64,000 nt of DNA from Lutraria lutraria (Eukaryota > Mollusca > Bivalvia > Venerida > Mactridae). Below the pieces are notes generated by a model. It saw nothing but the letters and a program-made list of their open reading frames with translations. It searched no databases and was not told the DNA's origin. Both the position numbers and the translations under genes were made by a program. Shown here piece by piece: positions 3,901 through 63,979 of the stretch. Each line of letters begins with the position of its first letter. The stretch's first letter is position 1. Location of the stretch: assembly GCA_964023205.1 (NCBI GenBank), contig OZ026835.1:37545083-37609082 (forward strand). The letters run 5' to 3'.

Positions 3901-6900
3901 GCTGTGACAATAGTGCAAAATTTACATGGAGTCAACAAAATATTTTCCAATTTCAAGTACAAAATGTATTTGCATAAATACAAAGTCTTGCATCACACAA
4001 CAGTACAAAAATTTTGATTGAATGAATGGAGAATATTCAGATTTTGTCAATCAGTGCATTGATACAGACTGTTAAACAAGACATAATTATTTGGTCATAG
4101 ACAAATATACAAACAGTCAATGAACTGCACACACCACATAATTATGTTTAAAGTAGAAACATGTAGATACCTGTTTCTTCCTAACATCTTTTGTTTCATT
4201 GCGAGCAGTGGTCATGCTTCTAGTCTGCACTTTATCAACATCTGTTCCAAGGTCTTTATCATTTGTGGTTTTTGCTTTACCATTTGAATCATCAACATCT
4301 GCTTGTAATACTGTATCAGTGTCCATAGGTTGTGAATTTGTCTTGGCATCCTTAGAATCTAATTCAAACAAACTGCTGTGCGAATTCACATTTTCTTCAG
4401 TATTGTCTAAATCAGTTTTTGGTGATTTTTTCAACCCAGTACCAAATACCATTTCTGTATCTGAGTCAGTTAACTCAGAAGTATTCTTCGTTCTGTCATG
4501 AGATAGGCTTTTGTTATCACATCCTGAAATGTTTGACATGCCATCAATAATTTTGTTCTGATCACCAAGTTCAACTCCATCTTCAGGAATTTCAATATCC
4601 TGATTACCTGTTTCTTGTGCCACTTTCCTTTTCTTTTCTTCACCTCCTTTCTGTTTCACATTTCTTTTCATTGGATTGCTACCATTAGATTCATTACTAA
4701 TATCACCTAAATGTTCTCCATTTCTATGCTCAGCTGAAGTGTTATTATCAGCAACATCATTTTGGGCAGTGTCATCAACTATCTTCAATTTTTCTATTTG
4801 AACGTCATTAGAATTAACTTCATTCTGATTTTCAGAAGTAGTTTGTTGTGTATCTTGGTACACAATATTAATATTTCCCTTTACATCAGTGCTTGTTTCA
4901 GTTGTATTTTCTGTGGGTTCTAACATCTCAACATCATCATCCGGCACAGGATCAGAAGTTTCATCCTGGGTGCTTTCCTGTACAATATTATCAGAAGGAA
5001 TTTGCTTTGATTCACCTTCAAGGTCCTTCTTTGCATCAGAACTATCAACTGTTTCAGAATCAGTCCTGCCAAGGCCAGTTTGTTTCTCTACAAGAATAGG
5101 CATGACATCAGACACTGTTACATCAGAATCTAGTTTTGGTAGTAGCTTTGTCTCACTGCCAGGTGCTGTAAATACAAAATTATAACACTATGTCTCGAGC
5201 ACATGCTTTCTGATATTTCCTGATGAATGACAAGACGCTGTGTTCAATAAATGAATATGCCACGGAGGCATGCTTGCCAAGCACTAGCCCATTTGAACAA
5301 GGTCAAGGTCAAAGTGGGTGTTTGATAATTATGGGTGGATTGAGAATGGTCATAAGCAACAACTGTGTAAATGTTCTAGTAAGCTAAGCTGGTGCTAGAC
5401 AAAAAAGTAAAATCTACTTAACCTCATGCAGAATCATTCTAAGTCCAAATTAAGTCATGGTCAAAGTGAGGTAGGATGAAACTGGTGGATTGAGAATGGT
5501 CGTAGGCAACAACTGTATAAGTATCAAAGTGTTCTAATTCGCGATGTTCGTGCTACACTAAACAGTAAAATCGACTAAACTTTGTACAGAATCATTCTTA
5601 TGGTCAAAATTAAGTCAAGGTCAAAGTGAGGTTGGATGAAATTGGTTTATTGAGAATGGTCCTGATTACCTGTTTCTTGTTCTACTTTCCTTTTCTTTTC
5701 TTCACCTCCTTTCTGTTTTACATTTCTTTTCATTGGATTGCTACCATTAGATTCATTACTAATATCACCTAAATGTTCTCCATTTCCATGCTCATTTGAA
5801 GTGTTATTATTAGCAACGTCATTATGGACAGTTTCATCAGTTATCTTCAATTTTCCTTTTTGAACATCATTAGAAATAACTTCATTCTGATTTTCAGAAG
5901 TAGTTTGTTGTGTATCTTGGTACACAATATTAATATTTCCCTTTACATTAGTGCTTGTTTCAGTTGTATTTTCTGTGGGTTCTAACATCTCAACATCATC
6001 ATCCGGCACAGGATCAGAAGTTTCATCCTGGCTGCTTTTATTATCAGAAGAAATTTGCTTTGATTCATCTTTAAGGTCCTTCTTTTCAGCAGAAGTATCA
6101 GCTCCCTCATATTTATTCCTGTCAAGTCCAGTTAGTTTCTCTACAATAATAGGCACATCAGTCGTTGTTACATCAGAATCTACATTTGGGAGTGGCTTTG
6201 TCTCACTGCCAGGTGCTGTAATTACAAAATTGTAACACTATGTCTAAAGCACATGCTTTCTGATATTCCCTAATGAATTAGAAAAAAAATCAATTGTATA
6301 CAATTATTTATCTTTTTCATAAAACTCAAACCATAACCATACCAACCACAATTTTGACCTATGGGAAATAGCGATATGATGAGAATAATCTCCACAATGC
6401 AATATATTTACATACCAAGTTTCATTAACCTAGCCTACATAGTGGTTAAGTTATAGCAGGATCCACTTTTGAGACGAATTGACGGACAGACGGATGAATG
6501 TGGATAATTCACCAAGTTTCAGCAACCTATTTTGATTTTTTTTTAAGTAATTGCAGGATCCAGTTTTGAGGCCCTGGTGTTCACATACCAAGCTTCGTCA
6601 ACTTAGCTTGAATAGTATGTAAGATATCAATGGATCAAGATTTTGCGACCTTATTTTGACTTGCCATTCCCATAGCAACCATATTTTTTCCCTGAGGGAA
6701 CAAGAGGACCATGATGGCCCTATAATTGCTCACAAGAAAAAAAACACTAGAAGAAAAGTTTTCTGTTTTTTTTCTTATATAAGTCTTTGATACATCAAGT
6801 GACCCCCCGGACAGGGCCAATTTTTACCCAAGGGCCATAATTTAAACTTGGCAGAGGTCCACTAGACAATGCTACACAGTACACACCAAATATCTAAGCT

Positions 6901-9286
6901 CTAGACATTGTAGTTTCTGACAAGAAGATTTTTTCATTTTCCTATATAAGAATGTAAAATCAAGTTACCCCTGGGATGGAGCCAATTTTGACCCCAGGGC
7001 AACATTTTGAACAAACTAGGTCAGTGTTCTGCCAAGGACACAATTCTGTGATATTCTTGCTATAAAATCCTAAACGTCGCATAAAATATTGCTTGGGTGC
7101 GATTAATGTCGCCTACGAAATTTCTCGGTACGAATCCAGAAACAAACTGCAAACGTCGCAGTAGAAATTTTTTACAGGAACCAGTGCCGAGTGCGCGAAA
7201 GCCGTTTCTTACAGCACTTCTGATTGGTGCATAATTCTGCACTGATCAATGAAATCAATTGTTTTTTTTTCAGACGGTTCATCTTTACGAAATAGCGATG
7301 CTGACAAGAGTCACAGACAATTCTAAGCTTTTTTCCAAAAGAAATGTCTGCAATCGCATCAAAACAATAATATAATGGTCAATTCTCCACCTGCCAACCC
7401 TCCTTTTACCACAATTTCACCCCGACCAGTCTTGTTGTATGAAAAATCAGATGAAACTACTGTAAACAAACATGTTATCATGCTCTAATTTATGATACGT
7501 AAGGGGAATCCATTCATGATTTTGTTATTTCATACATTGCTCGTAAGATATATATCGCCAAGTCTTAAAGTACCTTGATATTCATCAGTAGAGAACTATT
7601 ATTGGTGTTTTTTTGGTGTTTTTTTTAATATACATACCTGGTTATGTTATGTAAACCAGGTATGTATATTAACTATTTATATATGTACCTGGTTAAGCAA
7701 GACTATTTGAAAATGTACATCAAAATAAAATAGGATAATTTTCTTTATATACATAGTTACAATTCATGTGGTTATTTTTTGTCTCTGTCATTTTCAAAAT
7801 ATCCCCAATATCTTTTATTGAAGGGAACATTTGTCCCCACTTTTTTAAAAGCTTGGCAGAACACTGTAGGTAGTGATCCACAAGACAATACTACAAACCA
7901 AATATCTAAGCTCTAGGCCTGGTGGTTTTGGACAAGAAGATCTTTTTTTCCCATTGGTTGCCATAGCAATTAGTATTCAATGAATTTAATTTTTTGAACA
8001 ACTTTGACAGAGGATCACCTTGGGATCATTCCAGCCTGCCTGGTTAGCTCAGTGATTAGAGTGTTTGTCTACTAATCGAGAGGTTGTGAGTTCGAACCCC
8101 AGGCGATGCTCACACTGTCCTGGACAAATTTGACTGAAGATATTACATCCTATGTTAAATTGTCCCCCACCTCTGAATTATGTGGGGTAGCTTGGCAGAA
8201 GCTTACGGATAGAATGTTGTTAGTACTGGTTAAGGCTTAAATGAAGTCCAGGAAAGCTGGTAAGGATAACTGCCCGCCACGATATGACTGAAATAATGTT
8301 GAAAATGGTGTTAAACCCGATGAAACAAACAAACATAAGGATCATTCCAACAAAGTTTGGTTGCAATTGACACAGTGAGTAGGAGGAGATGTTGTTTTCA
8401 AGTAAATTTTATGATGCACAAAGGACAAAAAGCGATAAAAAAGCGCACCACAAGCACAGCACATATGTGTTCTGGTGAGCTAAGAACGAAATGACATGCA
8501 TAATCTCCACGTTGCCGCCAATTCACATACCAAGTCATTTACAATGCTTGAACAGTGTTTAATTTATTGCAGGATTGAAGCGGACAGACAGACAGGTGGA
8601 CGCACAGACGGAGGGCAAACATATAGTCCCCTTAGGGGATTGATAAAGACTATAAGCATGCATATTGTAGTTACATGTTGTTAAACACTAGCTATGTTGG
8701 AACACTGTAAATAGAAACAAAATAAATTTATGGATAGAACCACCGCTTTGTACTTAATACCAAATACACATCAAACAGTATCATCCATTTTTTAAAAACT
8801 TACATCAACTAATTAATGTTCAGTCACTTGTTGTATTAGAAATAGCATTTAATGCATGTTACAATCAAAATTCATACTGCAGTGTATAGATCAATACATG
8901 CACATTGAAATCATGTAAACAAACCATCGGCCAGCATATATCTCAAAGACTTACTTTCAGCAGATTTCTTTCTTCTCTGCCCACATTCTCCACAAAACTG
9001 CACACTTGGCTGAAGTTGAGCGCCACATTGACATATCTCAACCCGAGACTTGAACAATGATTTGTCAATCAGTTTACCACACTCAGTGCAGTACTTTAAC
9101 TTCACTGTTAGTTCAGCACCACAAACAGATCCATCATCAAGTTTGCCATCACAGATCACAACGGCTCCAGACATCTCTTCCTCAACCATCGTAGAGCCAC
9201 ATTCTTGACAAAACTTCCCAGTACCCTCAAGACCACACTTAGTGCTGGAGCACTTCCTCATTATATCCTCCTCAGGTTCTTCACTT
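798..9286 (-). CDS. RNF213: Second RNF213-like gene, N-terminal part (5 exons; runs off the left edge)
   Basis: Five minus-strand exons splice in phase: 9,286-8,955, 6,215-5,670, 5,165-4,171, 3,574-3,525 and 950-798. From the ATG at 9,261 they encode about 683 residues. The order is a triple zinc ribbon (residues 1-100), an acidic low-complexity linker with two basic KKRKV patches (about 103-620), and the start of a CBM20-like carbohydrate-binding domain (from about 635; VTVQFHILTSEDF then FGHQDLGGWN). Vertebrate RNF213 begins the same way: a CxxC zinc ribbon, a long disordered linker, then CBM20. The AAA, RING and RZ parts would lie left of position 1. The ATG is chosen because the zinc ribbon starts right after it, as in vertebrates. 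The frame is open back to the acceptor, so an upstream coding exon cannot be excluded. Confidence 0.85.
1366..2476 (-). mobile_element. tRNA-derived SINE, minus strand, split by the hAT element
   Basis: Read on the minus strand, the head (2,476 to 2,376) has a class-II tRNA-like start, GTGGTTGAGTGGTTA. The body and tail continue at 1,496-1,366. The same family occurs intact at 12,361-12,619. Confidence 0.8.
1505..2367. mobile_element. Non-autonomous hAT-type DNA transposon (863 bp)
   Basis: The terminal inverted repeats begin TAGGGCTGTCCCGATA at both ends. They are flanked by a perfect 8-bp direct repeat TAAAGAGA (1,497-1,504 and 2,368-2,375), the target-site length typical of hAT. No transposase frame is present. 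It sits inside a SINE. Confidence 0.9.
2477..3440 (+). repeat. Dispersed repeat with 'GGGGCAGGGCCAATAATGACC' type blocks
   Basis: Several degenerate blocks (GACATTATTTTAGCAA, TTAGAGGGTCTCTAGAT) match 61,165-61,882. A GGACGGACGGAC tract is at about 2,745. It lies in an intron of the left RNF213-like gene. Confidence 0.55.
3525..3574 (-). CDS. RNF213: RNF213-like small linker exon
   Basis: This 50-nt exon (acceptor TTACAG, donor GTAAGT) encodes NKNETVSSGTNELFAS and leaves AG. That joins the A of the CBM20 exon to give Arg. The phases fit both neighbours exactly. Confidence 0.75.
4171..5165 (-). CDS. RNF213: RNF213-like acidic linker exon, full-length copy
   Basis: The exon is 995 nt, two bases in and phase 0 out (donor CAG|GTATCT). 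It is rich in Asp, Glu, Ser, Thr and Asn with no predicted globular domain, and has a basic patch KQKGGEEKKRKV. It ends RNETKDVRKKQ and splices to the 50-nt exon. Open frames on the opposite strand here are shadows of the biased composition. Confidence 0.82.
5290..5650. repeat. Three degenerate about 130-bp units between the duplicated linker exons
   Basis: Each unit contains GTCAAAGTG, GGTGGATTGAGAATGGTC and AACAACTGT, and ends with ACCTCATGCAGAATCATTC-like bases. A related unit is at 2,590-2,720. The right end abuts the duplicated exon. Confidence 0.6.
5670..6215 (-). CDS. RNF213: RNF213-like acidic linker exon, duplicate copy
   Basis: The exon is 546 nt, two bases in and one out. It is a 5'-truncated duplicate of exon 5,165-4,171: it shares its acceptor, the intron bases before it and the first two thirds of its coding sequence. 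It encodes PGSETKPLPNVDSDV at the start, then DDDVEMLEPTENTTETST and KQKGGEEKKRKV near the end. If the donor at ACAG|GTAATC is not used the frame stops 7 codons later. With it, G|CA joins the next copy in frame. Confidence 0.75.
6236..6697. other. Intron sequence of the left RNF213-like gene
   Basis: The first 50 bases copy those before the other linker exon. The rest has GACGGACAGACGG and CACATACCAAG blocks typical of dispersed repeats here. No exon seen. Confidence 0.5.
7022..7866. mobile_element. MITE with CAGTGTTCTGCCAAG termini (845 bp)
   Basis: It has 15-bp perfect inverted ends and a 5-bp direct repeat TAGGT on both sides (7,017-7,021 and 7,867-7,871). Removing it restores the sequence of the host repeat as seen at 53.1 kb. 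No transposase is present. Confidence 0.8.
7627..7670. repeat. Perfect 17-bp hairpin inside the MITE
   Basis: The arms AATATACATACCTGGTT (7,627-7,643) and its exact complement (7,654-7,670) are separated by a 10-base loop. A partial third copy of the arm follows at about 7,683. Confidence 0.85.
8034..8338 (+). mobile_element. tRNA-derived SINE of a second family (305 bp)
   Basis: A-box-like GGTTAGCTCAGTG and B-box-like GAGTTCGAACCCC mark the tRNA head. The tail ends AAACAAACAAAC after a conserved TGTTGAAAATGGTGTTAAAC core. The 11-bp target duplication GGATCATTCCA is at 8,023-8,033 and 8,339-8,349. Confidence 0.9.
8955..9286 (-). CDS. RNF213: RNF213-like N-terminal exon: triple zinc ribbon
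   Basis: The acceptor is TTGCAG, and the donor GTAAGT leaves one base. The ATG is at 9,259-9,261 and 25 nt precede it in the exon. Three Cys clusters are visible: KCSSTKCG with KFCQECG, VICDGKLDDGSVCG with KYCTECG, and ICQCG with QFCGECG. These resemble double zinc-ribbon domains. The exon ends KKSAE plus a split codon that joins the linker exon. Confidence 0.85.
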
Positions 9287-9459
9287 CTGCAATTTTTTTA
9301 AAATCAAGGTACTAGAAGAATTGTTAATTGGGGACACCAGGAAGGAAAGAAACATTTACAAGATGCTGAAATAACTATATTTTTTCTAAGGACAGTCAAT
9401 CTTGTGTTAGAAGCCATCTCTGAATAAAGGTCACCCTGTAAATAAAGGCCATTCTTTAA

Positions 9460-57900: not shown

Positions 57901-60900
57901 AGGCACACAAATCCACATTAACACTTAGGTTGGACAATTGGAAATGTGATAAACAAATTTCAACACGAAAACTAAGACAATTACATTAAAGTAGGTCTAG
58001 GAAGCACCACCATTCATTTTACTAATGATCAAGGTTTAATGAATGATTACAGACATTGTTAAATAAATGCTAAAATCAAACGCATTAAGACAGCTAAGTT
58101 AAGATTATGAATAGTAATACGACACAATATGTATACCTCTTTCAAGAAAAGTTGAAGAACTTTAAACTGTTTCTGGCGCATTTGTGTTACACTGATTTTA
58201 GCATCAATTTCCTGTCGGAGATGTTGCAAAGATATCGGTGTACGATATCTCCATACACGAGGAATCAGCTGTAACGAAGACGGGTCCTCAGCTTCCGAAT
58301 GAGTTTCCGTTTCATACAATAAACACAACAAGGGGTTTGCTCCTAAATAAAACGAAAGTCAAGTTTTGAATGATATTGTGAATTAGCTGAGTTTTGTGCT
58401 AAGGAGGAGGTGCTGGTGAAGACAGTATTTTGTTGAGGGTCGATTTCTTTGTATGTTGTTTCTGGGAATCTTTTTATTAACTGTATACTTATATTGTCAC
58501 ACAATGATTTCATAAATGTGCAATTTATCCCGACCAGTGCAATGAAATGTTCAATTGTTATGTGTAGTAAGTAATTTGCTATAGGACAACTTCAATTGTA
58601 CAGCAGTACACACCAAATCACAAAAAAAAAAAAATTCATCCAATTCTATATATGCCAAGTAACAGCTCAATTAAATGCAATTATAAATACATACCTAATC
58701 TTTGATCTTGTGCTAGTAACTGGTTGTTAACCTTCAGTGTATTGTCCAAAACCTAAACATTACAAGATTATTATGCAATTTATTATGTACTCAGTACAAA
58801 GCAAACTGAATGTTTACAACTGTAGAGACATATTCTAGTAATAAATAGATATCGTAATACATGTATTACTGATCTGCATTATGTTTAATTTCTGACTAGA
58901 TCAATTAATCAACATACATTGCTTTTAAGTATATTGAGTGTCTTTTTCACAACTATTTGATCTTATTTGCCAATGTTATGATAAAAGTAAATGCATCCTT
59001 ATATAATACATGTATAATACTGGGTGAAAACATCATCTATTCTAACATAATTGTGTCGAATATTTATGATAACAATAAAGCCTCTTTTTTAAAGAATCAC
59101 TAAATGTTTGATCAGTTTTCATTGTTTCCTTTATATTTCCACTTGACGACTAGACCACAACAATATTAAGACCATTTTGGGGTTCCCGATAGTCTTAGTA
59201 CAATTCAACCTGCCTTATCAGAACCTTTCTAATTTTAAAACATCTTTACACCTAACAGGTCAGCCGGTCCCAGTTGTTTAGCATGTAATCCAAAATCTTT
59301 CAGATCCGAAAACCTCTCTAAGACTTATCCAAGAACTTTTGGAAAAGAAGGGTTCTACTGTATAAATGTTTACTATATTTTGAAGCAAATATAACAAGGT
59401 ATTACCTGCAAAACTGGTTGTACAAATTTGTTAGAAAATTGCATTTCCCATTTGTTTCTACCTTTTTTACCAGTAAGACGATATACATCCTTAGTAACTT
59501 GTTCCCCTGAAAAAAAATGCAGAAATAAGCATATGAATAAGGATTCTATAACAAATGACAAATTGGTACAAGAATAATACATGTATAGCGAGAAAGCTAT
59601 CAGTAAATACATGCAAATACATATCACATTTTATTTGGTAACACAAACAAATCTAACAGTGATCTAAAAAAAGCCAACTTCTAAAGTAAATCATTCAATG
59701 TATGTACGATATAAGGATCATATACCTTCATAGTGTGATTTCATCATATAATCTATGATTACATGCATGGTAAGTAAAACATCATCCACACTTCGGCCTA
59801 GACTTAAATGTATGTCTTCAATATCTTGTAGTAAGTGATTCCAGATATAATCGATCACTTGACCCGGCATTATGTCAGGCTTAATCAAAGCATGTATACC
59901 CTGCAATAACAAATACACACACCTTTATAAAGAGGTAGATATAATGATAGTGTTAGTATTACAGGCCCATTACCTTTTTGAATTAAGTAATACAGAACAT
60001 TAGACAAAATGATAGTAAAATATCAGAAATATGTTTTATTTCCTCTAAAATAATACATGCATTTACATAATGCCTTTCTTTAGCCACATCTTGTAATATG
60101 TTTAAAGATGCTTTTCTTATTTTTCGCATTATCATTAAAAAATACTGTGCTATAGTTCTGTAAGTACATTGTGATTAAAAAAGATTTTTTTTATTGCAAG
60201 TAAGTCAGTTTCACTGAATCAGATAAAACGTCAAGACCTATTTTCATTTTAACATTCAAAAAGCTTAAGTGCTTTAAAATATAATATTTTTTTAAAAGTA
60301 GCCCAAGCCATTTCTCCTCCCCCCTGGCCACTTTTCCATGTTGGAAAATAAATGAGCAGGGTAACATGGCCTGTAACACCGGGCGGGAACTGAAGATATG
60401 AAGCAAGCCCACAAACAAACATGTTAACAAACAAGTCTTGCTGGTTATTATTATTTTTGAAAAGATTGTTACAAGAACTTGAGTATGGGGCAGTGGCCTT
60501 AAATACTATTGAACTAGATGTTTACTTTCGGAACGAAACATATGTCTCCCCTAGCTGTACTCTAGAATTATGAGTAAGCCGTTGTTGTGACCCTAGGGAG
60601 ATGGCTGTTGTGTGTAACACGCTGGGGAATGTTTTAAAGTAATTGTACCAAGTAATTTTACAATTGTCCAAGAGATGTCCAAGTTATTACCCAGACGCAA
60701 AATATGGGTAGACCAACTAACCAATCAACCAACAGGAGTAAAATCAGTATGTCTCCCCCTACATGAAAAGTTGGATATTTCAGTTTCATAATTGGAATTT
60801 TAGCTTTGTGATAAATTAATACAATCACAAATACAAGTTTGATTCCTGTAGGCCCAACTTCAGTATGCAATGTACAAATGTAAAACTTACTGTCGTATTG

Positions 60901-63900
60901 GTTCTACAACCAAGATACATAGATAAATGTAGGATCATTCTGATTGTAGCACAGTGTGCAGGACTCATGGTTCTCTCTGGTTTAGGTCCTTGGCCTCTTA
61001 CTGCAGCTCTACCAAGTATATGACCATGCTGAGTGCTATCACCTCTGTAATGTAGGAGAAACCAGTACTTACTAATGTGGTAATACAGATTAAACTTTCC
61101 TTTAAGAAAAATTAAAGGACTCAGAGGTCCTGCGATGCACACCTGAGAATTGATTTATGGCAATATCATTTACAAATTTGATTTAAGTTTGTGCTGCAGT
61201 ACGTATAAATATTAGAAAATAAGACAACATGTGACCCCTGAGGCAGGGCAAACTTTGACCACAGGGACATTAATTTAGCATATTTGTTAGACTGTCTCCA
61301 GATGGTGCTCCATGCCAAATATCTAGGCTCTAAATTTCGTGTTTTCATACTGGAAGATTTTTTACATTTTCCTATAAAATCAATATAAAACATGTGACCC
61401 TGGGAGGGGTCCAATTATTATCACAGAGATATCATTTTAGCAACTTGTTGCTACATACTATGTATGCTACATACTATGTATATAGGCTCTAAACTTAATG
61501 CTTTAAGAGGATTTTTCTTATTTTCGTATGTTAATCTACATAATTTAGAAATGTGGCAAGGCCCCAGTGACATTTTAGCCAATTTATTAGAGTGTCTCTA
61601 GACGGTGCTCCATGCCAAATATCTAAGCTTTTACCATAAGGTTTAAGACAAGAAGTTCTTTAAGTTTTTCTTTTTGGTTGCCATGGAAACCACAGTTCTG
61701 CATGGAATGTCATTCTTTTAGCAACTTTTGTAAAGGACCACCCTAAGATCATTCCTGTGGATTGCCTAAATTTGACACAGCTGTTTCAGAGGAGAGGTCA
61801 TTTGAAGAATTGTGAATGGACGGACAATGGACAAAACAGCATATTAATACCTCAAATTGAGCTTCGTTTAGGTGAGCTAAAAATACATATATACTGATTG
61901 TGAAGCAAACATGACAATAACAAAGTCCATGCTAACTGATTAAAATGAGTTATACTAATTACTAATTCTATATCACATTGTGCCATTTCTACATTTAATA
62001 AACAAAAAGTGCAAATGTCTAAAGAAGTCTTAAATCCAACTTCAGATATATATATATATATATATAATGTAGAGTGGTTAAACAAGTATGAATGACCACA
62101 CCAATGATTAGTCTCTATATCCATGATGTATTAAAGGGCGTAGTAAACAAGGATAAGAAAAAGACAAAGGAGTAACAAATTAATCATACAGAGGATGGAT
62201 GACATGTAATGGTACATAAATATTATCTAAGTTTCTAGTTAACCCACCCTGTGTCTTGAGTATTCGAAGTCAGTAGAACATGACCCGTACCTCCGATATC
62301 TGCCCCACATTTACACTTAGAAACAACGTATGGCCTACCACACTATTTAAAATAAAATTGGTTTATACAATATCTTTGTGAAACATAATGTCATAGAATG
62401 CTCAACACAAACGTGTACAACATCACTCAGACACACTGACCTTTCTAATATGAAATCACACTTCGATTGGTCTTCAGGGCAGAACTAATATTAATAATTT
62501 GTTACAACGTCACAATTCAATACAAAATGATACTTAAAATATTTAAATGACACATTATAATACACATTGTGTTTACTGAGTGATATTGCAGCACATGTTG
62601 AGAACTCTACAATTCTCAGGTCAAATTAGTAGTAACATAAATATGGTATATCATGCTTTCTCAAAATAACCATCTCCTTCCAATAAATGTGAAACCCTGT
62701 ATTTCAGACAATGTTTTTAAAAAATCCACACCAGTTCATTGTATTCAGTCCAGTTTCACATTCATTGAAATTGATATGGCATCTGAACACACTCTATGCC
62801 ACACTGACCCTTGATCCTGAATATTTCCAGGCCGGAGCTGGTACCCCTCACCCCCGATAACAGCACCACAGTCTTTACAATTACCAACAGTAGCTGGACG
62901 ACCACACTAATAGAAAGAAACACAATCAAATTTATCAATAAACAGTTTTGTTCATATCTAAATATGGGAGTTACGTTAAAATGAGCATATGGTTAAAATA
63001 TATCAAATCTGACAATATGACATGCATCTCATCTGACCTAAGAGAATACTGTATTTATAGTTTAAGTAAAATCAGTAGTTATTTTTCAGGAAGAACATAA
63101 ATTTTCCTTGTAGAATAATATTGTGTATTCAATAGCTACAATCACTTTAAAATATATCACGAGCATTCAGTAGTTACAAATGATAATTCTAAAAAATCAA
63201 AACTTACATCACCAATCACATATGGATGTCCATTGGGGCACCCTGAAATATAATAAACAGGTAACTGTGCACAAAATGAACTGCACTCTTTATGAAAACA
63301 TGAGAGATTTTGAACTTTGGATTTTAAATGATCTTATTCAGGAAAGGTTTTAACTGTAGCAGTTCATAAACAATTATAAATTATGTGAGCTACTTTCAGT
63401 TCCAGAATATCACTCCTGAACTTTCAGGCAAATATGACACTAACTCTACTAGTAAAGTTGGAGTGAGTGAGTCTTAGACAAACAACTTCGCTTTCTACTG
63501 GTCATTCACCCTGGATATTATCATACACCAACCAAGGATATATATAAGGTCTTACTTCCAATGTACCTCACATTATCTTTGATGTCTGAATATGTTTAGT
63601 ACAACTGACTTGCTAGTAACAAGAGTGCAAGGTCACAAAATACGCCCGTAAAATTCATTTTTCCAAGCATCAAGGGCCATAACTCAGAAGAGCCTGGTTA
63701 TCGAACTTGACCGAGATCTAATGGCCATAAACATTTCCAGTAAGTTTGGTGAGGATCCGAACAAAACTGTTTGAATTAGAGAGCGGACACCGTTTTGGAT
63801 GCCGCCCGACCATGGGTGTTCCCATAATACGACCCGTTTAATAAGTCTTATTGATCATAAATAATCTTACGGTAGAATACTGGGTTGTTATCTGCCCCTC

Positions 63901-63979
63901 GTACTGTTTGCCTCGCTGCGAGTAATGCCTCTTTAACATCATCCAGATCGTCCTGTGGCATTGTGGGTAGGAAGAACTG
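51761..63979 (-). CDS. RNF213: RNF213-like E3 ubiquitin ligase, C-terminal part (17 coding exons plus one alternative exon)
   Basis: This is the 3' part of a giant AAA-ATPase/E3 ligase gene that enters from beyond the right edge. I joined 17 exons with canonical AG/GT borders and matching phases; they give 2,304 nt, or 767 codons plus stop. The conserved blocks follow vertebrate RNF213 order: an FLPTMP segment, an RZ zinc finger (CPNGH then CGRP and a C..C knuckle then IGG), GHILG, YCIRSID, ILPLVLANC..EMGKGT, FLKSTGG, LHEFILLK, and the terminal ADILYKHSV. The length from FLPTMP to the stop is close to the same part of the vertebrate protein. In mammals RNF213 ubiquitylates proteins and bacterial lipid A, and the RZ finger is needed for the latter. 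The AAA and RING parts are outside the window. Two copies of the RZ second-half exon are present (see those entries). The gene lies head-to-tail with the RNF213-like gene at 798-9,286. Confidence 0.93.
52012..52157 (-). mobile_element. Minus-strand SINE 3' fragment in the last RNF213-like intron
   Basis: It matches the tail half of the 12.4-kb SINE family in reverse, with a TTTGTTTGTTT start that is the complement of the A-rich tail. It lies between the last two coding exons. Confidence 0.7.
52464..52663 (-). CDS. RNF213: RNF213-like penultimate exon
   Basis: The exon is 200 nt, phase 0 in and two bases out at GTGAGT. It encodes TIFESITKEFHEELPVEEKD, then LKDFMKTLSVEKLSQFVEVL and HEFILLK. 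It matches the F..YK..L......L..FL...GL..FL.ELHE.I.LKL block of vertebrate RNF213. Confidence 0.94.
52766..52911 (+). repeat. 32-bp tandem repeat, about 4.5 copies
   Basis: The unit is CTCAATGATACAACCAGTAC followed by TGTATAATCAAA. The copies are nearly identical, so it is a recent expansion. It lies in an RNF213-like intron. Confidence 0.9.
52923..53930 (+). mobile_element. 'AACAAGAGGGCC' family repeat in an RNF213-like intron
   Basis: It starts GAACAAGAGGGCCATGGTGG then CTATATCGCTCACCTG, and contains repeated blocks of the type CCAGGGCCATAATTTGAACA. It lies between the exons ending at 54,611 and starting at 52,663. Confidence 0.7.
54611..54709 (-). CDS. RNF213: RNF213-like C-terminal exon
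   Basis: This 99-nt exon is phase 0 at both ends and encodes ARQMCEFGHCKSLWLLLSML and then KAKVMVDRHQHPE, corresponding to the K-x-x-x-LWxLL segment. It splices in frame to exon 52,663-52,464 across a 1.95-kb intron that holds a repeat. Confidence 0.9.
55031..55225 (-). CDS. RNF213: RNF213-like C-terminal exon (FLKSTGG block)
   Basis: This 195-nt exon is phase 0 at both ends. It encodes EELKSLPDICQTLDNLD, then ITISFLKSTGGDEDENLHTY and LHMSEMCIKGQR. It matches the L.FL.TTGGDP..PL..YL block of vertebrate RNF213. Confidence 0.93.
55853..55927 (-). CDS. RNF213: RNF213-like C-terminal exon
   Basis: This 75-nt exon, phase 0 at both ends, encodes IDEMLYRTEITNDAVF and then RKLAEKIPQ. The donor is GTTAGA. 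Confidence 0.88.
56249..56477 (-). CDS. RNF213: RNF213-like C-terminal exon (ILPLVLANC / EMGKGT block)
   Basis: The exon is 229 nt, one base in and phase 0 out. It encodes VCPREVTSAHLISYDPEHDI, then LPLVLANCQYSFEMGKGTKI and an ERQLMDRFL helix. The pair LANC and EMGKGT is diagnostic for RNF213. Confidence 0.96.
56792..56981 (-). CDS. RNF213: RNF213-like C-terminal exon (EYCIRSID block)
   Basis: The exon is 190 nt with two bases in and two out. It encodes CPTTLGGVIVPKEYCIRSID, then DTTPIAMLLPTIKEAGLCSY and LLDFLMRKQNDFL. This is one of the clearest RNF213 signatures here (P-x-x-Y-C, D-T-P-x-x-M-L-L-P). Confidence 0.94.
57103..57189 (-). CDS. RNF213: RNF213-like C-terminal exon
   Basis: The exon is 87 nt, with two bases in and one out. 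It encodes EAVAGGETIQLLQDFTDAWE and then LVREHLIMY. The single A left over forms the Met codon split with the next exon. Confidence 0.88.
57429..57558 (-). CDS. RNF213: RNF213-like C-terminal exon
   Basis: The exon is 130 nt, phase 0 in and one base out. It encodes EHHLRALRFIPSILRLHRAL and then FQKYQRKLDKAEA, which matches the LRHLPEIL..QR block of vertebrate RNF213. Confidence 0.91.
58137..58342 (-). CDS. RNF213: RNF213-like C-terminal exon
   Basis: The exon is 206 nt with two bases in and phase 0 out. It encodes ANPLLCLLYETETHSEAEDP, then LIPRVWRYRTPISLQHLR and a Gln/Lys-rich helix ending LFLKE. Confidence 0.9.
58695..58752 (-). CDS. RNF213: RNF213-like C-terminal exon
   Basis: This 58-nt exon encodes VLDNTLKVNNQLLAQDQRL, enters in phase 0 and leaves one base. 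Both splice sites are canonical (TTTAG and GTATGT). Confidence 0.88.
59406..59506 (-). CDS. RNF213: RNF213-like C-terminal exon
   Basis: The exon is 101 nt with two bases carried in and phase 0 out. It encodes EQVTKDVYRLTGKKGR and then NKWEMQFSNKFVQPVLQ, resembling the W-E-x-x-F-S segment of vertebrate RNF213. Confidence 0.9.
59726..59900 (-). CDS. RNF213: RNF213-like C-terminal exon
   Basis: The exon is 175 nt with acceptor TTGCAG and donor GTATAT, phase 0 in and one base out. It encodes a helical segment with WNHLLQDIEDIHLSLGRSVD and then DVLLTMHVI. It matches the helical C-terminal domain of the family. Confidence 0.9.
60891..61044 (-). CDS. RNF213: RNF213-like exon after the RZ finger (QHGHILG)
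   Basis: The exon is 154 nt, entering with one base and leaving in phase 0 at GTAAGT. It encodes GDSTQHGHILGRAAVRG and then a MSPAHCATIRMILHL helix. This matches the TGHVLG...MSP block that follows the RZ finger in vertebrate RNF213. Confidence 0.93.
61165..61882 (+). repeat. Dispersed repeat, same family as 2,477-3,440
   Basis: It shares the blocks TTAGAGTGTCTCTAGAC, GCTCCATGCCAAATATCTAA and TTTTTGGTTGCCATGGAAAC, and ends GGTGAGCTAAAAA. It lies in the RNF213-like intron after the RZ exons. Confidence 0.55.
62045..62066. repeat. (TA)n microsatellite
   Basis: An uninterrupted run of about ten TA dinucleotides. Confidence 0.9.
62248..62342 (-). CDS. RNF213: RNF213-like alternative exon B: second half of the RZ finger (C-x-C form)
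   Basis: The exon is 95 nt with acceptor AAATAG and donor GTGGGT, and has the same entry phase (0) and exit phase (GG) as exon A. It encodes CGRPYVVSKCKCGADIGGTG and then a tail ending in NTQDT. The frame is open with no stop. The knuckle is CKC, one residue shorter than in exon A. Splicing A to B would shift the frame, so the two are probably mutually exclusive. Confidence 0.82.
62809..62906 (-). CDS. RNF213: RNF213-like alternative exon A: second half of the RZ finger (C-x2-C form)
   Basis: The exon is 98 nt with acceptor TATTAG and donor GTCAGT, entering in phase 0 and leaving two bases (GG). It encodes CGRPATVGNCKDCGAVIGGE and then 12 further residues ending in IQDQ. The zinc knuckle has the usual CKDC spacing. 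It joins exon 61,044-60,891 through GG|A to give a Gly. Confidence 0.88.
63208..63242 (-). CDS. RNF213: RNF213-like exon: first half of the RZ zinc finger
   Basis: This 35-nt micro-exon encodes RCPNGHPYVIGD. It supplies the first Cys and the His ligand of the RZ finger and ends in phase 0. Either copy of the second-half exon can follow in frame. Confidence 0.92.
63615..63840 (+). repeat. Dispersed repeat fragment
   Basis: It starts AACAAGAGTGCAAGGTCAC and contains GGGCCATAACTCAGAAGAG and GTAAGTTTGGTGAGGATCC, in the style of the other AACAAGAG repeats here. Confidence 0.45.
63871..63979 (-). CDS. RNF213: RNF213-like exon: FLPTMP segment before the RZ finger
   Basis: The acceptor is TTTCAG and the donor GTAAG. 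The exon is 109 nt, enters in phase 0 and leaves one base over. It encodes QFFLPTMPQDD, then an acidic helix and DNNPVFY. The block leads directly into the CPNGH zinc-finger half, as in vertebrate RNF213. Confidence 0.92.

Follow-up and report, generated by a model that had tools for sequence, protein, structure and literature searches.

Candidate mutually exclusive exons for the second half of the RZ finger in an RNF213-family gene of the clam Lutraria lutraria

An RNF213-family gene of the clam Lutraria lutraria carries two versions, A and B, of the exon that completes the RZ zinc finger. They are probably mutually exclusive exons, spliced alternatively in one working gene. The window, meaning the whole 64,000-nucleotide stretch of DNA that was analysed, is C4:37545083-37609082 in an assembly of 728.5 Mb and 71 contigs, which was also used to search the clam's own genome. 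On the minus strand, the A/B pair sits close to the upper end of the window, and the gene extends past it.

Results

Two exons for the second half of the RZ finger

Exon A (62809..62906, minus strand, 98 nt) encodes CGRPATVGNCKDCGAVIGGEGYQLRPGNIQDQ followed by the bases GG, with a CKDC knuckle and a Tyr at the general-base position. Exon B (62248..62342, minus strand, 95 nt) encodes CGRPYVVSKCKCGADIGGTGHVLLTSNTQDT followed by GG, with a CKC knuckle and a His at that position. Each is preceded by AG and followed by GT. The first-pass annotation of this DNA had given both exons these lengths, a TGTGG start after AG and a terminal GG before GT, and had put 466 nt between them; the coordinates all hold, and the intron (62343..62808, minus strand) has this length. 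Its description of A and B as two intact versions of the second half of an RNF213 RZ finger was borne out. The Pfam RZ profile (PF20173, cut-off 27) scores 72.2 bits with the A form and 69.5 bits with the B form. The spliced forms match RNF213 in the PDB with best values of 2.2e-12 (A) and 1.7e-10 (B), and the matches, among them the human and mouse entries 8s24, 9g08, 6tax and 7oik, span the RZ finger into the common downstream exon. The two exons encode segments that are 57.6% identical (tblastn E about 2e-8 within the window). Their likeness at the DNA level is confined to the exons and about 14 nt ahead of the acceptor, and its near-absence elsewhere indicates that the duplication is old.

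The flanking exons are shared. E1 (63871..63979, minus strand) lies upstream of the RZ finger, encodes QFFLPTMPQDDLDDVKEALLAARQ...NPVFY and has one extra base at its end; it is an open reading frame with AG/GT borders and a phase that fits E2. Counterparts of E1 are present in the more distant paralogue L008, in the six other copies of the gene cluster described below and in relatives among the database proteins. E2 (63208..63242, minus strand) encodes the first half of the finger, CPNGHPYVIGD, and ends in phase 0. It provides a Cys and a His that correspond to the human zinc ligands C4505 and H4509, whose roles are described in PMC11549300. The phase-joined reading of E1 and E2 is VFYRCPNGHPYVIGD. 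The downstream exon E4 (60891..61044, minus strand; GDSTQHGHILGRAAVRGQGPKPER...) needs two bases from the exon that precedes it.

A and B show the features of a mutually exclusive pair, being adjacent homologous exons of similar length with equal entry and exit phases. Either one fits the upstream and downstream exons in frame, as had been proposed, and both E2-A-E4 and E2-B-E4 are open. The proposed frame shift of A followed by B was also confirmed, with E2-A-B-E4 running into stops. With the same exon edges, stops are also reached in E2-B-A-E4 and in the direct E2-E4 joint that skips both exons. The frame breaks on joint use or skipping for these edges, and weak donors after A would permit in-frame joint use. 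Messages with both exons or neither would make no full protein when the frame is broken.

Extent of the gene

More exons of the RNF213 C-terminal region were placed between 51793 and 59900 on the minus strand from open reading frames, splice scores and a phase-consistent model, with approximate edges. The gene model is itself approximate because it was built with generic splice scores, phase and colinearity with L008 (69 chained matches), and some of the small exons are doubtful. It aligns with bivalve RNF213 models up to their ends, including Mactra P0037 at 60.8%. Upstream of the window, open reading frames near 37.640 and 37.651 Mb hold the Walker-like motifs GETGCGKT and GKPGSSKS, candidate traces of the AAA+ ATPase modules of the RNF213 family, and a RING-like stretch lies at C4:37619858-37620037 (16 bits against a Pfam RING cut-off of 27.9). 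These stretches indicate that the gene reaches at least about 40 kb past the window. At a position where a RING normally has Cys-x-His, the RING-like stretch has LPCGDALC. The RING Pfam domain is found in none of the eight Mercenaria models among the matches listed.

Two further features of the window were observed. Neighbouring long open reading frames of 356 and 196 amino acids at 4117-6237 (minus strand) have the common beginning CYNFV.TAPGSETK and are alike over much of their Asp/Asn/Ser-rich bodies; they are perhaps duplicated exons. An open reading frame at 8911-9297 (minus strand) has several zinc-ribbon-like CxxC pairs and may belong to the beginning of the next RNF213 copy. Mactra P0037 and like relatives have the zinc-ribbon domain PF12773.

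Active-site residues carried by A and B

The metal ligands of the human RNF213 finger are C4505, H4509, C4525 and C4528, the proposed ubiquitin-accepting nucleophile is C4516, and H4537 is the proposed general base, which is a prediction (PMC11549300). With either H4509A or C4516S, Salmonella, Listeria and the Toxoplasma vacuole are no longer ubiquitylated, and C4516S marks C4516 as essential in mammalian cells (PMC11549300). The A form aligns with the human protein without gaps from C4505 to H4537. This alignment places the first residue of A at C4516, its knuckle at C4525 and C4528, and its Tyr at the H4537 position. The B form aligns likewise to mouse and human, with a knuckle one residue shorter and a His at the base position. 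We infer that each exon starts with the proposed ubiquitin-accepting Cys and also carries the general-base position and two of the four metal ligands; an exon switch would thus exchange most of the RZ active site. The first-pass annotation was right that the knuckles differ (CKDC against CKC) but overlooked the larger change, which includes the proposed catalytic Cys at the exon start and the Tyr or His at the base position.

The variation at these positions was surveyed in 64 database proteins returned by protein searches, 60 of which fitted the RZ second-half pattern. P0022, P0036, P0059 and P0062 fell outside the pattern, and P0062 has CxxC and His when read by eye. Species and protein counts are lower bounds since each 90% cluster is represented by one protein and the searches had length limits. 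Across the 60 fingers the general-base column holds His in 44 and Tyr in 16, and all of the Tyr fingers are from bivalves. The knuckle spacing is CxxC in 50, CxxxxC in 5 and CxC in 5, the last being Mercenaria P0004, P0006, P0008 and P0038 and Ruditapes P0042. Knuckle type and base residue are only loosely linked: Ruditapes P0042 combines CxC with Tyr, and 35 of the 50 CxxC fingers have His. In the clam itself, the cluster copy L003/L034 has an Asn at the base position of exon A.

Donors, introns and RNA pairing

The A donor GTCAGT scores 2.2, and two cluster copies have GTTAGT at 2.6. The B donor GTGGGT scores 3.1 compared with 5.6 for the GTGAGT donor of B in L008, a single comparison; the A donors are also lower than this. 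At 466 nt, the intron between A and B is not too short to be spliced, so frame loss would have to enforce exclusivity. The annotation had raised in-frame inclusion of both exons through another donor as a way in which exclusivity could fail, and such a route is possible through weak donors only, the normal A donor scoring 2.2. One extends A to 147 nt (last base 62760), is in frame with B and is present in all seven copies that have A and B. The other extends A to 114 nt (last base 62793), is likewise in frame with B and occurs in the window copy alone, where it arises from a base change. Each scores about 0. In each of the seven copies, the reading frame of A remains open over 53 codons. Counted by pattern in 59 database proteins, the second half of the finger occurs once in 52, is absent from 7 and occurs twice in none.

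Docking and selector sequences had been suggested as a mechanism of exon choice. The intron after E2 contains a 20-nt stretch, ATTTTAAAGTGATTGTAGCT (63134..63153, minus strand), that is identical in the window and L008 and is the second longest exact intron match among the 36 intron pairs compared (4 of 40 were skipped). The window and L008 introns around this stretch are otherwise much diverged. It was tried as the one candidate dock, and 36 of 100 shuffled docks paired equally well with downstream sequence, which gives no backing to the suggestion. To our knowledge, docking/selector pairing is not required in all mutually exclusive exon pairs.

Copies in the clam genome

Searches of the clam's own genome gave at least eight matches each for exon A and exon B. 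Seven loci have both exons, the window's own included, and all lie at C4:37.37-38.12 Mb. This tandem RNF213 cluster (L001-L007, L032-L037) has copies in both orientations. E1, E2, A and B are open in all seven A/B loci, and E4 and E5 were found in six; neither was found within the 9 kb examined at L005/L035. In each of the other six copies the A-B intron measures 467 nt. Over 3093 bases L006 and L007 do not differ and L001 and L002 have one mismatch, and these pairs may reflect recent duplication or haplotypes that the assembly retained. The distinct A/B loci are therefore five of the seven. The cluster copies are 79-100% alike across the aligned stretch.

Two loci have one type of exon alone. 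L008, the eighth B locus, is a paralogue located 21.7 Mb away and has an intact B with no whole A. Its 567-nt intron between E2 and B contains a stretch that matches the last bases of A and its donor region, with the front of A missing. The local score of this stub is 41 compared with a best of 30 in 2000 shuffles, which makes it very likely that both exons were present in the common ancestor of L008 and the cluster and that A was lost in L008. The decay of the stub indicates that an unneeded exon copy does decay here. The eighth A match, L031/L038, is a single A-like exon (CxxC, His), and the stretch from it to its E4 yielded no B. Among the matches listed for exon A there was no further close A, and the next best was 52% identical.

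A and B types in other bivalves

Mercenaria has models of both types. P0041 and P0039 are of the A type, and P0003 and P0005 are more diverged CxxC proteins. The CxC proteins P0004 and P0006 are both named isoform X2. P0041 and the B-type P0008 have 89.7% identity across 3785 columns. In the flanks nearest the exon, 242 of 280 columns are identical, the last of which take in the differing tail of P0008, whereas the exon itself has 17 identical columns out of 33 (Fisher p=1e-5). Among the 3761 windows of this pair, 165 differ as much as the exon; because such windows occur elsewhere in the two proteins, the weight rests on the match in A and B types. Window A is 91% identical to the P0041 segment and window B is 81% identical to the P0008 segment, and the medians for windows of the same length are 69% and 65%, respectively. 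Equally conserved windows make up 8.3% for A against P0041 and 18.1% for B against P0008, which places both exons above the median but not among the exceptional. A is 81% identical to Mactra P0037, and the 68% identity of B to P0004 equals the median for that protein.

A tree of the flanks (34 rows, 178 columns) pairs P0008 with P0041 (100/99). The window groups with L008 (100/98) and then with Mactra antiquata P0037 (97/96), within a 21-row group that also holds Mercenaria, Ruditapes, Mya and Dreissena (100/98). In a tree of the exon (35 rows, 32 columns), which has few supported forks, window A is nearest to P0041 and window B is nearest to L008 and P0008. Duplication of the exon within Lutraria lutraria, which would make window A and B sisters, was rejected (p-AU 0.017). 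A clade of the six B exons was neither rejected (p=0.50) nor resolved in the 32-column tree. The simplest reading of the trees is that the A/B split predates the parting of the clam's lineage from Mercenaria and that both types have been kept in one gene here.

A readable finger was obtained from 21 bivalve species, of which nine have Tyr models as well as His models, both counts being lower bounds. The nine are Mercenaria mercenaria, Ruditapes philippinarum, Saccostrea echinata, Pinctada imbricata, Mizuhopecten yessoensis, Mytilus coruscus, Mytilus edulis, Dreissena polymorpha and Mya arenaria. RZ fingers of both kinds are thus present together in several bivalves, in separate models, and the clam gene has the two as exons.

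Selection on A and B

Between the window and L008, exon B has a dN/dS of 0.25 (dS 0.60, 31 codons). The same comparison for E4 gives 0.58 over 51 codons at a dS of only 0.12. Among the five distinct cluster copies, exon A varies at 6.1% of its sites and exon B at 4.2%, against 4.7% for the A-B intron and 11.0% for the E2-A intron; E4, which lay outside two of the five loci, is left out of this comparison. Variability inside the cluster gave no clear signal of constraint on A or B with five copies. Being recent, the copies do not test constraint independently, and the cluster is too young to show it. Comparisons outside the cluster bear on whether either exon is a relic or an assembly accident. 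For B this was rejected by the dN/dS against L008 and by the presence of the B type in four Mercenaria models, and for A by the identity to the Mercenaria P0041 segment. Selective retention of both exons is well supported by the trees, the cross-genus identities of 91% and 81% and the dN/dS of 0.25.

Discussion

We propose that A and B arose when the second RZ half-exon was duplicated in tandem long ago, before the parting from the Mercenaria lineage. The splicing machinery would include one of them, A or B, in each transcript, and a message that held both exons or lacked both would be frameshifted and likely removed. Splicing would yield either a finger with Tyr and a CxxC knuckle (A) or one with His and a CxC knuckle (B). 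The His form should transfer ubiquitin like the mammalian enzyme; the Tyr form should load ubiquitin and transfer it differently, more slowly or to other acceptors. That the switch alters the chemistry of ubiquitin transfer is a reasoned guess. In its full form, the proposal is a splice-controlled active site in which the catalytic Cys, half of the zinc site and the His or Tyr base are swapped together; one form would be competent in transfer, and the Tyr form would use other acceptors or would load ubiquitin and release it slowly; this we put forward tentatively, as one possibility.

The main competitor to alternative splicing is that each gene copy uses one exon and carries the other as a passenger in young copies that exchange sequence, with the choice made by gene copy. 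The likeness of the cluster copies (79-100%), which show no clear extra constraint on A, fits this idea, as do the presence of B alone in L008, the A-like exon alone in L031/L038 and the existence of the A-type and B-type Mercenaria models as separate genes. P0041 and P0008 are different genes, and in Mercenaria each gene might therefore use one type alone. A passenger is harder to reconcile with A and B both lying near their Mercenaria counterparts while residing in one gene of the clam lineage. Maintenance of A by gene conversion would need a donor outside the cluster, and no close A was present there among the matches listed, the next best being at 52%. We consider this explanation unlikely. 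Still less is to be said for transcripts that join A and B through an alternative donor to make a doubled half-finger. The in-frame donors (147 nt in all seven copies, 114 nt in the window copy) and the 53 open codons of A in all seven copies would allow them, but donors of about 0 compete with normal ones of 2.2-2.6, and none of the 59 database proteins has two second halves by the pattern used. A doubled half-finger is very improbable.

A different question is what the preferred A/B splice switch would do. It could be real and yet affect stability or metal binding, with the Tyr/His difference incidental. This overlaps with our proposal and is no alternative to the splicing claim. Tyr is found in 16 of 60 fingers, all bivalve, the knuckle spacing varies too, and the general-base role of H4537 is a prediction (PMC11549300), all of which would suit an incidental difference. 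The essential Cys at the first codon of the exon, judged from C4516S in mammalian cells (PMC11549300), instead makes the swapped segment catalytic. An effect confined to stability or metal binding seems rather unlikely.

The order of the RZ finger is the same in the clam as in human and mouse RNF213, with CPxGH, the catalytic Cys, the two knuckle Cys, GG and then GHxLG. We know of no alternative RZ exon described in mammals, whereas the clam has two versions of the second half. The closest parallel is rnf213-alpha-like P0041/P0008 of Mercenaria mercenaria, in which the A and B types occupy the same position between near-identical flanks; unlike the clam exons, these are separate gene models. 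Exons 9/10 of PKM and 6a/6b of MAPK8 are adjacent homologous exons with matching phases, one of which is included per transcript. The type of pair is already known, and the clam pair is one that lies inside the active site of an E3 ligase: in contrast to PKM and MAPK8, the swapped segment holds the proposed catalytic Cys and zinc ligands. RBR ligases with a Cys/His pair have a proposed nucleophile and general base, as in RNF213 (PMC11549300). They are a different class, and in the clam the general-base position would be set by splicing. No splice switch in the RNF213 RZ finger is named in the titles and abstract openings of the papers among the matches listed.

RNF213 puts ubiquitin on bacteria and parasite vacuoles, and the clam gene bears on the route of transfer by the RZ finger, including to non-protein targets. 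It offers two natural active-site segments on one scaffold that differ in knuckle spacing and in the residue proposed as general base, which makes the proposed Cys and His roles directly testable by comparing A and B fingers. Exposure of the Manila clam to peptidoglycan, LPS or poly(I:C) strongly raises some RNF213 genes and lowers others, as reported in PMC7430831, and from these responses bivalve RNF213 genes plausibly act in immunity. The A/B pair suggests that invertebrates may tune RNF213 through splicing as well as through gene number.
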